Assembly (NCBI RefSeq): GCF_003850045.1
Contig: NZ_RQJX01000007.1
Coordinates: 1-64,000, forward strand
Origin: Aeromicrobium camelliae
Lineage (GTDB): Bacteria > Actinomycetota > Actinomycetes > Propionibacteriales > Nocardioidaceae
Length of the DNA: 64,000 bases
Direction: 5' to 3'
This document shows positions 39,180-44,384 of the stretch, in pieces; within the stretch, counting starts at the first letter, position 1, and each line of letters opens with the position of its first letter. The translations under genes were made by a program, and so were the position numbers. The notes beneath the pieces are model-generated. The model ran no database searches. It was not told the DNA's origin and worked only from the letters and a program-made list of their open reading frames with translations.

Positions 39180-41939
39180 GTGGACGAGGAGGAGCAGCTG
39201 CCCGCATGGCGATCGGCGCCGCCGTCGGTGCTCGCGGTCATCGTGAGCCGCCGCGGTGAACGCTGGTTGCCCCAGACCCTGGCGTCGTTGGCACGCCTCG
39301 ATCACCTCCCGACCCGCTGGATCGCCGTGGACGTCGAGTCCGACGACGACACGCGGACCCTGCTCAGTGACGCCCTCGGCGCCCAGCACGTCATCTCCTC
39401 GGGCTCACCCGACGCCGGTTTCGGCGAAAGCGTGCGTCGTGCCGTCGAAGCCGCGCCGCGCACGGACTGGATCTGGCTGCTCCATGACGACGCGATCGCC
39501 GATCCGGGTGCTCTGACCGCCCTGCTGGACGAGGCCACGAGCGCGGACGACATCGCGGTCGTCGGACCCAAGATCCGCGAATGGCCCTCATTGCGGCGCC
39601 TCCTCGAGGTCGGCCGGACGATCACCGGCACCGCTGCGCTCGAGACCGGCCTCGAGCCGGGCGAGCCCGACGCCGGTCAGCACGACTGGCCGCGCGACGT
39701 CCTCGCCGTCTCCACCGCGGGCATGCTGGTGCGCCGCGACGTGTGGGACGAGCTCGGAGGCCTGGATCCCGCGTTGCCCCTGTTCTTCGACGACATCGAC
39801 TTCGGCTGGCGCGTCGCCCGAGCCGGCTACCGAACGCGGACCGCACCCGCAGCGGTGCTGTTCCACGCCGAGGCCGCCAGCCGCAGGACGCGTCGGCGCC
39901 GTCCGGCCGCCGGCGAGCGCCGCCGCGCTGCCGTCTACACCATGCTCGCGAACGCGACGGGACCGCGGTTCTGGTGGCGGTCGGTGCGCCTGTTCGTCGG
40001 CACCATCCTGCGCATGCTCGGGTTCCTCATCGTCAAGGACACCCGCGCCGCGTCCGGTGAACTCGCCGCGCTGCGGGAGGTCTTCGCCAAACCCGGCCTC
40101 ATGCGCCGCGCGCGGGCGCAGCGCGCGCAGACGGCGCGCGCGTCGAGCCGCGATATCGCGCACCTGTTCCCGTCGGCGTGGCTGCCCTATCAGCACGGCT
40201 GGGACGTCCTCGTGGAGAGCATCCGGGCCGCCGTGCGACCCGAGGCCGTGCAGACGCTGGGCCGGCGCTCGTCGACGCTCGACCTGATCGACGAGGAGAT
40301 CGTCGTCGAGGACGGCGACCCCTGGTGGCGGCGCTACCCCTGGGCGACCACGGTCCTGGTGCTGACCGTCCTCGCGCTGCTCGCCGGACGGGGGCTCTGG
40401 ACCGGAGCGGTCGCCTCGCCCGTTCTGCCACCGTCTCCGGACTCGGTGACCGACTGGTGGCGTGACCTGTTCACGCGCGCCACCGACGCCACGGGTCTCG
40501 GCTCGGCCGGCTGGCCCGCTCCGTATCTGCCGGTGCTCGCCACCGTGGGACTCCTCGTGGCGTTCGCTCCCGGACTGCTCAGCTGGGCCCTCATCGTCTT
40601 CGCCGTCCCGCTCGCCGCCCTCACCGCGCACCGGTTCGGACGGACGATCACCGACCGGCGAGCAGCCCGCATCGTCTGGGCTGTCGGGTACGGCCTGCTC
40701 ACCGCCGCCTCGGGGGCCGTGGCTCAAGGCCGGCTGGGCACGGTGGTCGCGCTCATCCTCGCCCCGGTGCTCGCCAACGCCATCGCGCAGGTCATCGTGC
40801 TGCCCTCGTGGACGCGGGCGGCGCAGGTCGGCCTGTGGCTGGCCGTCGTCTCCGCGTTCGCGCCCGCGGCGTTCCTCATCGCCGTCCTGGCGATCGCGGG
40901 CCTTCTCGTCGTGGCGCGGCTTCGTCCGCCGCGCGAACTCCTCGTGGGTGTCGCGGCAGCGGCTCTGGTCGCCGGCCCGGCCTGGTGGCGACGCGTCATC
41001 GACCCCGCCGACTGGTGGTGGGAGGCCGGTATCTCGCGCGGCGTGAAGGCATCGGTACTGGAGCTCGTGAGCGGTTCCGGCGGCGGCCCCGGCAGCGCAC
41101 CCTGGGCGCTTGCGGCCGGTGTCCTCGTGCTCGGTCTGCTCGCCCTGGTGCCGCGGGCGACCCGCTTCGAGGTCTCATTGGCGTGGTGGATCGCGTTGAG
41201 CGGTCTGCTCGTCGCCGCGATCGGTTCCTTCGTGCCCGCGGTCGCAGGTCCTGCCGGAACCTCGGCGTGGTCCGGCCTCGGGGCGGCGATCTGGCTGGCC
41301 GGTCTCGGTACCGCGGCGCTGCTCGCGGTCGGCGAGGTCGCACGCTGGGGTCGCAAGGCCGTCATCGCCGGCATCGTCGTGGCCGTGATCTTCCCGCTCG
41401 GCGTCGGTGCCTGGTGGGTCGTGCGCGGCACAGCCGACCCGCTGAGCGGGGCGGTAACGCCCACCATCCCGGCGTATCTCGCCGACCAAGGACGCACGAC
41501 CCTCGTGATCGACGGGTCGCTCGCCGACGGCGTCACCATCGACGTGGTTCAAGGCGCCGGACCGCACCTGGGCCAGGAGGCGGTCAAGCCTTCGCCGGAA
41601 CGACGCGATCGCTTCGCTTCGACCGTCACGAGCCTGCTCGCGACGTCGTCGGCCAAGGACGTCGAGGAGCTGTCCCGCTTCGGCATCGACGCGATCTACC
41701 TGCCCGACGCCGACGCCTCCATCGCTCAGGGGATCAGCGCCGCGCCGGGCCTTCTGCCCGCCGGAAGCGATCGGCCCGGCTCGCGCGTCTGGACACTCGA
41801 TGCCGAGGTGGCAGCGGAGGCCCCGGAGGCCGCGGCGTGGCGTCCCTACGCGGTCGGCGGATGGCTTGCCGCCTGGGCGGCGCTCGCCATCGCCGCGGTG
41901 CCGGGCCGCCGCAGCCCCGACGAGGAGGAGACCCCCTGA
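39180..41939 (+). CDS. large membrane glycosyltransferase (GT2 family)
   Basis: 919 residues from GTG 39180. The N-terminal GT-A domain at about 15-250 is family 2-like: LAVIVSRRGERWLPQTLASL, WIWLLHDDAIADPGAL, STAGMLVRRDVWDELGGLDP and LFFDDIDFGWRVARAGYRT. From about 380 onward come many hydrophobic helices with a C-terminal extracytoplasmic portion. It probably transfers sugars for cell-wall glycans, consistent with neighbours. The stop overlaps the next ATG (TGATG). Confidence 0.9.
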   Translation: MDEEEQLPAWRSAPPSVLAVIVSRRGERWLPQTLASLARLDHLPTRWIAVDVESDDDTRTLLSDALGAQHVISSGSPDAGFGESVRRAVEAAPRTDWIWLLHDDAIADPGALTALLDEATSADDIAVVGPKIREWPSLRRLLEVGRTITGTAALETGLEPGEPDAGQHDWPRDVLAVSTAGMLVRRDVWDELGGLDPALPLFFDDIDFGWRVARAGYRTRTAPAAVLFHAEAASRRTRRRRPAAGERRRAAVYTMLANATGPRFWWRSVRLFVGTILRMLGFLIVKDTRAASGELAALREVFAKPGLMRRARAQRAQTARASSRDIAHLFPSAWLPYQHGWDVLVESIRAAVRPEAVQTLGRRSSTLDLIDEEIVVEDGDPWWRRYPWATTVLVLTVLALLAGRGLWTGAVASPVLPPSPDSVTDWWRDLFTRATDATGLGSAGWPAPYLPVLATVGLLVAFAPGLLSWALIVFAVPLAALTAHRFGRTITDRRAARIVWAVGYGLLTAASGAVAQGRLGTVVALILAPVLANAIAQVIVLPSWTRAAQVGLWLAVVSAFAPAAFLIAVLAIAGLLVVARLRPPRELLVGVAAAALVAGPAWWRRVIDPADWWWEAGISRGVKASVLELVSGSGGGPGSAPWALAAGVLVLGLLALVPRATRFEVSLAWWIALSGLLVAAIGSFVPAVAGPAGTSAWSGLGAAIWLAGLGTAALLAVGEVARWGRKAVIAGIVVAVIFPLGVGAWWVVRGTADPLSGAVTPTIPAYLADQGRTTLVIDGSLADGVTIDVVQGAGPHLGQEAVKPSPERRDRFASTVTSLLATSSAKDVEELSRFGIDAIYLPDADASIAQGISAAPGLLPAGSDRPGSRVWTLDAEVAAEAPEAAAWRPYAVGGWLAAWAALAIAAVPGRRSPDEEETP

Positions 41940-43273
41940 TGCCTGCGCTCGCTCCTCGGTTCGGTTTTCCCGTCCTCGCGGCGGTCCTAGTCGTACTCGT
42001 CGCCGTGCTGCCGGGCATCTCGGCGCCGCAACCTGAACCCACCCGTGCGGACGTCGACCAGACGTCCTACACCTGCCCGTCGTGGGAGGGGCTCACCGTC
42101 ACGGCCGGCCAGGTGGCGCCCGGCGACGAGGCCCAGGCAGTGGCGCTGCCCGACGGCGCCGAGGTCCCCGAACTCGCCGACGCCTCGATCTGGCGGAACG
42201 CGGCGCCGCGCGGCGAGGCGATCTCGGTGACGCAGACCGGCGAGGGAAGCGGAGCTGTCGGCTTCCTCGCCGGCACCGCGACCGGACGCGGTGAGGGGCT
42301 CGCGGTGGCCGCGTGTCCGCGCATCGTCGACGATGCCTGGTTCAACGGCCTCGGTGCCGTCGAAGGGCATGACGCCGAACTCGTCCTGGTCAACCCCGGC
42401 GACGACGAAGCGGTCGTCGAGTTGCGCGCCTGGTCCCCGGTGGGTGAGGTCGAGGTGCCCGACGGAGACGCGCTGACCCTCGCTGCGGGGGAGACGCGGC
42501 GGCTCGCCGGCTCCGATCTGGCCGCCGGCGAGGCGCTGTTGACCGTCCGGGTCGCCCGCCAGCGCGGCGTGGTTGTGGCGGCGGCCCTGGAGTCGGGATC
42601 GGGCCCGGTGCGTGGCAGCGACGTCCAGACCGCTGGCCCGGCCCCCAGTCGCGCGACCGTCATGTCGGGCCTGCCCGCCGGCGTCGAGCGGCGGTTGATC
42701 CTCACCAACCCCGGCAACGAGACCGCGAACGTCGAAGTATCGATCGTCAGTGCCGACAGCGGCACCTTCGTGGCCGAGGGACTCGACGACGTCACCGTCG
42801 AACCCGGCTCCGTGCGCGAGGTGGGCCTGCCCGGCGAGGCGCCCGCCGGGGCGGCGGTTCAGCTCAGGTCCTCGCAGCCGATCACGGGCATCGTGCGTTC
42901 CCAGAGCCCCGACGACGTCGCCGACAGCGGCGGACTGGCGCCGCTGCGGTCCGGGCCCGCCGTGATGCCGGTGGTGGGGGACACGCAGCTCACCGTGGTG
43001 GCTCCCGATGCCGACCTGAAGGCGCAGATCGAGGTGTTCGACGCGCAGATGGAGTCGTTGGGAACGCGCGAGCTTCCGGTGTCTCAGGGTTCGAGCGCCT
43101 CCCTTGCGATCGGCGAGGTCGCTGAGGGCGGCGCGTACGCCGTGGTTCAGGCCGAGGGCGGCTACGCGGCGGCTCGGTACGTGAACGGACCGGGCATCGC
43201 CTCGCTGCCACTCACCGTCGCTCCCGTGGACGCCGTGGCCCCGGCGGTCTCGTGGGGCGGACGCTGGCACTGA
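41939..43273 (+). CDS. exported DUF5719-like protein
   Basis: 444 residues from ATG 41939 (MPALAPRFGFPVLAAVLVVL). One N-terminal signal/anchor helix is followed by a long, acidic, Gly/Ala/Val-rich beta-type exterior with repeated modules such as LVLVNPGDDEAVVELRAW and LILTNPGNETANVEVSIV, which look like tandem Ig-like or beta-sandwich units. Encoded directly after and coupled to the glycosyltransferase, so a shared envelope function is likely. The stop codon lies inside the left copy of a 22-bp direct repeat. Confidence 0.85.
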   Translation: MPALAPRFGFPVLAAVLVVLVAVLPGISAPQPEPTRADVDQTSYTCPSWEGLTVTAGQVAPGDEAQAVALPDGAEVPELADASIWRNAAPRGEAISVTQTGEGSGAVGFLAGTATGRGEGLAVAACPRIVDDAWFNGLGAVEGHDAELVLVNPGDDEAVVELRAWSPVGEVEVPDGDALTLAAGETRRLAGSDLAAGEALLTVRVARQRGVVVAAALESGSGPVRGSDVQTAGPAPSRATVMSGLPAGVERRLILTNPGNETANVEVSIVSADSGTFVAEGLDDVTVEPGSVREVGLPGEAPAGAAVQLRSSQPITGIVRSQSPDDVADSGGLAPLRSGPAVMPVVGDTQLTVVAPDADLKAQIEVFDAQMESLGTRELPVSQGSSASLAIGEVAEGGAYAVVQAEGGYAAARYVNGPGIASLPLTVAPVDAVAPAVSWGGRWH

Positions 43274-43283
43274 CACACGCCTG
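43262..43283 (+). repeat. 22-bp direct repeat, left copy
   Basis: Exact match to 43912-43933 (begins CGCTGGCACTGACACA). It contains the TGA stop of the DUF5719-like gene, so this copy is in the ancestral position. Confidence 0.9.
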
Positions 43284-43299
43284 GCGGTCGACCCGCCAT

Positions 43300-43383
43300 A
43301 GGTGGTCGAGTAGGGAGGCCGGCCGCGGCCGACAAATGGAGCCGTGGCAATGAGGGCGTAGCCGCCACGGAGCGAGATCACAT
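43300..43383 (+). repeat. dispersed repeat, long version, copy R3
   Basis: Begins AGGTGGTCGAGTAG, has the internal CCGTGGCA...CGCCACGG dyad and ends GGAGCGAGATCAC. Closest relative in this window is R1 (106-186), inverted relative to it. Confidence 0.65.
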
Positions 43384-43397
43384 GACTGAAGTTCGTC

Positions 43398-43441
43398 GGT
43401 GGTCGAGTAGCCGCGAGGAACGAGCGGCGTATCGAGACCAC
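43398..43441 (+). repeat. dispersed repeat, short version, copy R4
   Basis: GGTGGTCGAGTAG, a central GCGAGGAACGAGCG palindrome-like core, and ATCGAGACCAC. Near inverted match to R5. Confidence 0.65.
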
Positions 43442-43456
43442 ACGACGCGATGCGCT

Positions 43457-43752
43457 CTATTCCCGCAGCATCGTTTCGCCCACGCGCCACGCCCATCCTT
43501 CGCCCAGGGGTAGGGGTTCGGCGTGTGAGGTCGGGCCGTCCGGGAGTGGTTCTCGGTGGTCGAGGTCGCAGTCGGCGGCTCTTGTTGCTTCCATCGCGGC
43601 TATGCCCCTTATGCGATGGCTCCATGCCGGGGTATCGGCAGGTGCCGTCACGGAACCGGATCGCGTAGCGGACGGCGGTACTCCGCCAGAGCACGCTCGC
43701 GCCGCAACGCGGCCACGAAGCCGACCCGCGCGTCAGAACTGCTCTCGATCAT
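43457..43752 (-). pseudogene. DUF222/HNH (REP13E12-like) endonuclease remnant
   Basis: From ATG 43752 it begins MIESSSDARVGFVAAL, like the gene at the window start. After about 25 codons almost the whole DUF222 region is missing. Sequence resumes in another frame as AVRYAIRFRDGTCRYPG, the usual entry to the HNH domain, then shifts frame again to CDLDHREPLPDGPTSHAEPL. The final CRRHH part of the HNH motif is lost, and TAG at 43457 ends it. One internal deletion and at least two frameshifts mean no active enzyme. A TAGGTT -10 with 6 nt to the ATG survives. Confidence 0.85.
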
Positions 43753-43810
43753 GTCTCCAACCTAGAGAAGGCCACCGGCACTTCCGAGACCTTGTTCACA
43801 CCCCCGAGTC

Positions 43811-43854
43811 GGTCTCGATTCGCCCGCTCGTTCCTCGCGCGCTACTCGACCACC
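43811..43854 (-). repeat. dispersed repeat, short version, copy R5
   Basis: On the minus strand AGGTGGTCGAGTAG ... GAATCGAGACC, with the same GAGGAACGAGCG core as R4 and in inverted orientation to it. Confidence 0.65.
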
Positions 43855-43867
43855 TATGCCCGGGTCT

Positions 43868-43894
43868 GGTGGTCGAGCGACGGAGCGAGACCAC
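43868..43894 (+). repeat. dispersed repeat, minimal version, copy R6
   Basis: GGTGGTCGAG and GAGCGAGACCAC almost directly joined (27 bp), that is, the two repeat ends with most of the middle absent. Confidence 0.6.
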
Positions 43895-43911
43895 GTCGCG
43901 CGACGCGGTGT

Positions 43912-43933
43912 CGCTGGCACTGACACACGCCTG
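43912..43933 (+). repeat. 22-bp direct repeat, right copy
   Basis: Exact match to 43262-43283. It ends one base before the stop codon of the minus-strand zincin-fold gene. Confidence 0.9.
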
Positions 43934-43934
43934 A

Positions 43935-44384
43935 TCAGGGGCGCGGGTCGATGTCCTCAGGGGGAAGTTCCCAGGCTTCGGAGAGCCGCAGCAGCACGAT
44001 GTCCCACACGTTCTCCTCGAGTTCGGCCCCGGATCGCGAGCGCGTCGTGATGGGGAGCCGGTAGAGCACGAGCCGATGGCCGGGCGCGCTGCCCAAGGGG
44101 TGGATGCTGCTGGCCGGCACCTCGTCGGCCCAGCCCTCGGGAAGCAGCGGCGCCTCCTCGACGGCGACCTCCACCGGGGGAGCGCTCCGCGGCCCCCGCT
44201 CGATGATCGCTCGCATGACGTCGGCGACGAGGTGGTCGAACGCGGCTCTGCGGCTGCGGTCGGCGCGGATCCGCCGAGGCGAGAGCGGACCGGGAAGCGA
44301 CATCGGACCCCGGGCACCGCGACCGCGCCGGTCGCGCGAGCGGCCCGGCCGAGGGCCGTGCACGTGGCCCCCGAAGACGTCCAT
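43935..44384 (-). CDS. metallopeptidase-family (zincin-like) protein lacking HExxH
   Basis: 149 residues from ATG 44384. The N-terminal third is Arg/Gly/Pro-rich (GPRPGRSRDRRGRGARGP). The rest follows the actinobacterial member of the minimal zincin family found beside DUF3499 and phosphomannomutase: FDHLVADVMRAIIERG, VEVAVEEAPLLPEGWADEVP, RLVLYRLPI and ENVWDIVLLRLSEAWELPP. The family's zinc motif HExxH should fall in the last helix but is absent, so catalysis is unlikely. It is divergent from DUF3499. Confidence 0.8.
   Translation of the reverse strand: MDVFGGHVHGPRPGRSRDRRGRGARGPMSLPGPLSPRRIRADRSRRAAFDHLVADVMRAIIERGPRSAPPVEVAVEEAPLLPEGWADEVPASSIHPLGSAPGHRLVLYRLPITTRSRSGAELEENVWDIVLLRLSEAWELPPEDIDPRP

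Follow-up and report, generated by a model that had tools for sequence, protein, structure and literature searches.

REP elements that carry GTAG tags, occur with complementary stem variants and have partner nucleases are already known (PMC3733652, PMC3116915 and PMC2817692, in the portions of text accessible to us). The survey of the GTAG group names Proteobacteria, Cyanobacteria, Chloroflexi and PVC, and a word search of its main text for 'actinobacter' returned nothing (PMC3733652). Within the accessible part of the literature that we found, no paper links DUF222 with REP-like hairpins, and the pairing of GTAG REP elements with DUF222-HNH genes is absent from it. The hairpin repeats described below resemble GTAG REP/REPIN sequences with their RAYT genes (REPtrons) in being short palindromes of high copy number that bear GTAG at the foot of the stem, in having alternative complementary stems, opposite-orientation pairs and clusters, and in lying beside a nuclease gene. 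They differ from GTAG REP/REPIN in their long conserved outer arms, TGGTCGAGTAG...TATCGAGACCA, and from REPtrons in their partner, here a DUF222-HNH gene; no Y1/RAYT gene was found in any of the 19 genomes tested. The REP13E12/13E12 family of mycobacteria, as far as its family name and the accessible text of the papers on it indicate, shares with our locus multi-copy DUF222-HNH genes, signs of exchange between paralogues and a mobile-element-like spread; clade A, the group of DUF222 genes to which the window copy belongs, differs from that description by its upstream hairpin arrays.

The window is a stretch of 64,000 nucleotides from Aeromicrobium camelliae (genome G000), in which four hairpin repeats and pieces of an HNH gene lie between a DUF5719 gene and a zincin-like gene. 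The features of this junction are:

41939..43273, plus strand: DUF5719 gene, left neighbour (ORF; PF18986, E 6.6e-37), with its stop inside the left 22-mer
43262..43283, plus strand: left copy of the 22-bp direct repeat; same border in G037 with a 2-nt indel
43284..43294, plus strand: 11-nt bridge GCGGTCGACCC from the 22-mer to the first hairpin, common to G037
43303..43381, plus strand: hairpin repeat 1, long variant TGGTCGAGTAG...GAGCGAGATCAC (many genome matches to query 31-119; core read from the sequence)
43400..43439, plus strand: hairpin repeat 2, TGGTCGAGTAG - stem - TATCGAGACC (pattern match at G000:C37:43400-43439)
43457..43672, minus strand: 3' end of a dead HNH gene, with the HNH-core stretch deleted and a palindromic lesion as in the C5 copy
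43673..43752, minus strand: 5' end of a DUF222-HNH gene, fused to the 3' end (87% to C5:69104-69237; DUF222 domain missing)
43753..43805, minus strand: leader of the DUF222-HNH gene (genome matches; comparison with G037)
43811..43854, minus strand: hairpin repeat 3 (genome matches)
43870..43894, plus strand: hairpin repeat 4, shortened (sequence; alignment to G037)
43912..43933, plus strand: right copy of the 22-bp direct repeat; no counterpart found next to the zincin gene of G037
43935..44384, minus strand: zincin-like gene, right neighbour (ORF; PF06262 at 19.1 bits, below the cut-off of 22.4)

A sequence-only reading of this DNA had proposed a 650-bp insertion bounded by an exact 22-bp direct repeat, and both points held. 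The 22-mer, CGCTGGCACTGACACACGCCTG, has exact copies at 43262-43283 and 43912-43933 and no third copy in the window with three mismatches allowed; two matches were obtained in 0/100 shuffles, so the pair is not due to chance. As had also been noted, the left copy contains the stop of the DUF5719 gene and the right copy lies a single base away from the stop of the zincin-like gene; the stop-to-stop gap is 661 nt in the window and 11 nt, a tight convergent pair, after collapsing one 22-mer. In the 15 same-genus genomes with both genes measurable, a count made without the G043, G058, G052, G046 and G036 loci, this gap is 1-15 nt in ten and 26-37 nt in three (at most 37 nt in 13/15), and the two remaining relatives have gaps of 127 and 350 nt with other sequence inside; in G009 the two genes lie on separate contigs. 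Because the gap is tight in most relatives, 661 nt here and 11 nt after collapse, the 650-base block is confirmed as a real insertion. Since copies of the 22-mer sit at both borders of the insert and collapse restores the typical gap, the 22-mer is a likely, if unproven, target duplication, and the duplicated edges hint at an unusual mode of genome entry by the hairpin-repeat family. In the distant relative G019, the same junction is filled by another palindromic repeat, CCTGAGCTCGTCGAAGGGCC and its complement.

The insert consists of the four hairpin-repeat copies and the HNH-gene pieces, as anticipated, and no transposase was seen in it; a comparison with its own genome gives 148 matches, clustered as islands or located at the ends of contigs. 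Contig C5 carries a DUF222-HNH gene whose 3' end corresponds to positions 43398-43672 and whose 5' end and leader correspond to 43673-43805. This paralogue is fuller than the window copy and matches PF02720 with an E of 1.7e-18, and the correspondence bears out the suspected tie to DUF222/HNH sequence. The DUF222 domain was found in 4/4 of the relatives' genes scanned, and the two minus-strand frames tested in the insert matched no Pfam family, DUF222 included. The window copy has no DUF222 middle, and the stretch deleted relative to G037 is what we take to be the HNH core; no HNH model matched in the scans of the DUF222-HNH genes. A palindromic insertion of 29 nt (43591-43619) interrupts the HNH remnant and, among the loci compared, is common only to the C5 and C1-start copies. 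The insert derives by deletion from a DUF222-HNH element enclosed in hairpin repeats tagged with GTAG, and the window locus is an ordinary decayed copy. The missing middle between the 3' and 5' ends had escaped the sequence-only reading, as had the genome-wide repeat family described below. Elsewhere in the window, positions 1-209 form a contig end within another clade A-like DUF222 leader with hairpins (matches 7-114, 103-186 and 176-209).

The hairpin unit reads TGGTCGAGTAG - variable stem/loop - CG - TATCGAGACCA and is GTAG-tagged; in the form TGGTCGAGTAG-stem-CG-TATCGAGACC it is a short palindrome of the GTAG-tagged kind. An 11-mer of the unit occurs 121 times in G000 against seven times for its reversed control. 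The full pattern is present in 12/49 genomes of the genus, with none for the reversed controls, and its matches number 250 in G005, 197 in G037, 108 in G046, 76 in G052, 54 in G000 and at most 21 in the others, the counts in G000 and G005 being high-copy in the sense used for REP-like repeats. The hairpins are extragenic in the window and at the sites read. A first test of stem pairing, made in the wrong register, gave no signal; with all five registers tried, the stems covary in one register, where the observed pairing was reached by 0/2000 shuffles in each of five sets (four from the genus and one of named contigs), and a second register came out weakly high in the named-contig set (8/2000 shuffles). 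An Rfam search gave no match. The search for a RAYT-type (Y1 tyrosine) transposase was positive in 5/14 control genomes and in 0/19 genomes examined, G000 among them; this search was confined to the Y1 family and took in G000 and G005, without the repeat-rich G037, G046 and G052.

The hairpins are strictly linked to two clades of DUF222 genes. Fifteen genomes with 182 DUF222 matches supplied the flanks of 91 genes, or about half. A hairpin core is found at most 600 bp upstream in 11/11 assessable genes of clade A (two further ones run off their contigs and are left out of the 11), in 10/10 of clade B and in 0/68 other DUF222 genes, and in clades A and B it sits 59-229 bp from the start codon chosen by the script. 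Within the five repeat-rich genomes alone, 21/21 clade A/B genes have a core versus 0/17 others (Fisher 3e-11, a value that is only a guide because the A/B labels were assigned once the flanks were known, and because the copies are related to one another). In the DUF222 tree, whose deep forks are weak, A and B each form one group (100/100) with no unlabelled gene within and are not sisters. Clade A or B was found in all five repeat-rich genomes, and none among 20 of the DUF222 genes of G006, G009, G036 and G058, which have fewer repeats; this check was made without G007, G034 and G039. As DUF222 occurs in 47/49 genomes of the genus, DUF222 alone does not explain the hairpins. The motif GAACN4GTTC, which we take to resemble the actinobacterial SOS box, lies near the start of 31/68 DUF222 genes outside clades A and B versus 0/21 within them (0/11 in clade A, a further difference from the REP13E12 type), and its absence may stem from the position of these clades in the DUF222 tree, not from the hairpins. 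We know of no settled role for DUF222-HNH (13E12) genes, and a strict link between clade and hairpins in a genome that lacks the usual REP transposase suggests one that can be tested.

The history of the site can be read in part from the sister genome G037, whose zincin gene is 95% identical to that of the window. After its DUF5719 gene, G037 has the same border, then hairpins and a DUF222-HNH gene in two overlapping frames that runs up to the contig end. The zincin gene lies on a second contig, which opens with a DUF222 start, leader and hairpins; judging by the gene order of relatives, the two contigs presumably adjoin. The G037 element is longer than the window insert and shares its orientation and left border, which makes the insertion older than the window/G037 split; the small form is most likely a product of decay at this site. 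The check in relatives proposed by the sequence-only reading gave a divided answer: most relatives measured have the empty site, but the sister genome has the block without the right 22-mer. The idea that the right tail in G037 is a decayed 22-mer found no support, since its score is equalled by many shuffled sequences (3121 and 3437 out of 5000). Note that divergence between the window and G037 is deep at fourfold sites (41/92 and 148/268), so that the exact repeat looks surprisingly young for an old insertion, and an exact repeat of such age is unlikely to have lasted without constraint. The right hairpins are shorter in the window than in G037. The HNH remnant is identical to C5 at 189/215 positions, to the G037 C25 copy at 157/181 and to the G037 same-site copy at 145/176, and its palindromic lesion is absent from the last; this closeness to C5, together with the lesion common to the C5 and C1-start copies, hints that the remnant may have exchanged sequence with a paralogue after the split.

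Duplications were also sought at other hairpin islands. The clearest is at the G037 island C113:24025-24127, between PF01257 and PF01512 genes (which we take to be nuoE-like and nuoF-like), where a 26-bp duplication, 22 positions of it identical, is present in single copy in the empty G000 site; it spans the overlapping stop and start and keeps both genes open. At a second G037 island (L266:10504-10597), at a PF00499/PF00420 junction (presumably nuoJ-like and nuoK-like genes), the right edge against the empty site gave 9/5000, the left edge against the empty site 171 and left against right 1574. No readable duplication is seen at the three other G037 islands that G000 lacks, which lie in longer intergenic DNA; this leaves a clear one at 1/5 of such islands. 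The remaining islands whose two flanks were found are either shared or left as a remnant in G000, with differing hairpin content. When mismatches were allowed, the duplication scores over 69 sites were 22 for the window, 15 for one G037 site and 11 for the next, against a background of 600 mixed pairs with 99% at 10 and a maximum of 18. A search for clean target duplications among 70 clusters, in which the window island was entered split in two, gave none, and a 24-mer at L081 was rejected as a target duplication, being repeat sequence. Direct repeats of at least 10 nt flanking DUF222 copies were absent from the 43/51 loci with a partner, N runs aside, and six of these loci end at a contig edge. 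The remark that a target duplication of 22 bp is a long one is supported, and IS200/IS605 elements are stated, in the accessible text, to make no larger target duplications (PMC2817692), as opposed to the 26 bp at one site here. The two G037 islands with flanking genes named above both occupy tight junctions of the NADH dehydrogenase operon.

We put at roughly 50% the probability that about 22 bp of target were duplicated at insertion through staggered nicks, for which the DUF222-HNH protein is the candidate nuclease, a view based on the placement of the gene, the lack of RAYT in its own genome and the one empty/filled pair. A hairpin island carrying a DUF222-HNH gene would have entered the tight DUF5719/zincin junction before the split from G037; a nuclease, either the DUF222-HNH protein or a different one, would have made two nicks staggered by about 20-26 nt, allowing hairpin-array DNA to be captured and the overhangs to be filled in, doubling about 22 bp of target. 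Later, in the window lineage, the gene would have lost its DUF222 middle and HNH core, the right-hand hairpins would have shrunk and the remnant would probably have acquired paralogue-type sequence. Here we infer both the identity of the cutting enzyme and the standing of the window 22-mer as the original duplication. The main rival, to which we give a somewhat smaller but still substantial share, is that the insertion is old and the right 22-mer was copied later, with the left flank as template: the island would have broken and been repaired from a paralogue, its right end being sealed by a 22-nt left-flank patch primed by the 4-nt overlap CGCT, and the repeat would mark the repair. This would fit the failure to find the right 22-mer in G037, the exactness of the repeat despite deep divergence, a lesion shared with the C5 and C1-start copies and not with the G037 same-site copy, a remnant nearer C5 than that copy (with G037 C25 about equal) and the shortened right hairpins; gene conversion of REP13E12 is described for M. 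tuberculosis (PMC13061034, accessible text). The patch would, however, need to have fallen one base from the zincin stop by chance, and the empty/filled island of the sister genome shows that such lengths can arise at insertion.

Staggered nicking also has to be set against movement of the insert itself. The insert resembles MITEs in being short and non-coding with a direct repeat at its ends, and a miniature non-autonomous element with terminal inverted repeats, moved in trans by a conventional transposase, would account for that 22-bp repeat and for the inverted arms near both ends (43292-43313/43842-43863, 91%). We regard this as improbable: the arms are not terminal, no Y1 transposase, the only family searched, was found in the 19 genomes, and G037 has a longer form at the same site. 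Moreover, the own-genome search found no second match across the internal deletion joint, and thus no multiplication of the small form was seen, with the reservation that repeats collapsed at contig ends could conceal further copies. The many near-identical non-autonomous copies of MITEs are thus not found here, and decay in place fits better; as for target duplications, there is the 22-bp repeat here, the 26-bp one at a single empty/filled pair and none clear elsewhere. Movement as a small non-autonomous element, one of the options raised by the earlier reading, is therefore not supported in view of the joint and of the longer same-site form in G037. More improbable still is an assembly artefact in which a repeat-collapsed contig falsely doubled the 22-mer: at least 6/8 DUF222 matches in the G000 assembly lie at contig ends, but the locus is 43 kb inside its contig, and G037 confirms both the left border and the element.

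A broader and more doubtful extension of the staggered-nick reading is that Actinomycetota may have a REPtron of their own, in which GTAG hairpin arrays are associated with DUF222-HNH in place of RAYT, were taken up independently by two clades and insert with duplications of about 20-26 bp. If so, such duplications would be of sufficient length to leave both genes intact where a stop and a start overlap, and the spread of REP-like elements by an HNH nuclease, with long duplications, would follow a route absent from the literature found, within its accessible text.

Beyond the genus, the hairpin pattern occurs in other Actinomycetota and in Chloroflexota (mostly Anaerolineae), in at least 120 stretches, 80 of which were listed; neither DUF222 nor Y1 is among the best 25 of the 143 families beside these hairpins (91 of 182 ORFs scanned). 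In G005, many hairpins are arranged in tandem with a period near 158-173 bp, like a bacterial satellite, and 12 hairpin cores lie in one place at 2711297-2713173.
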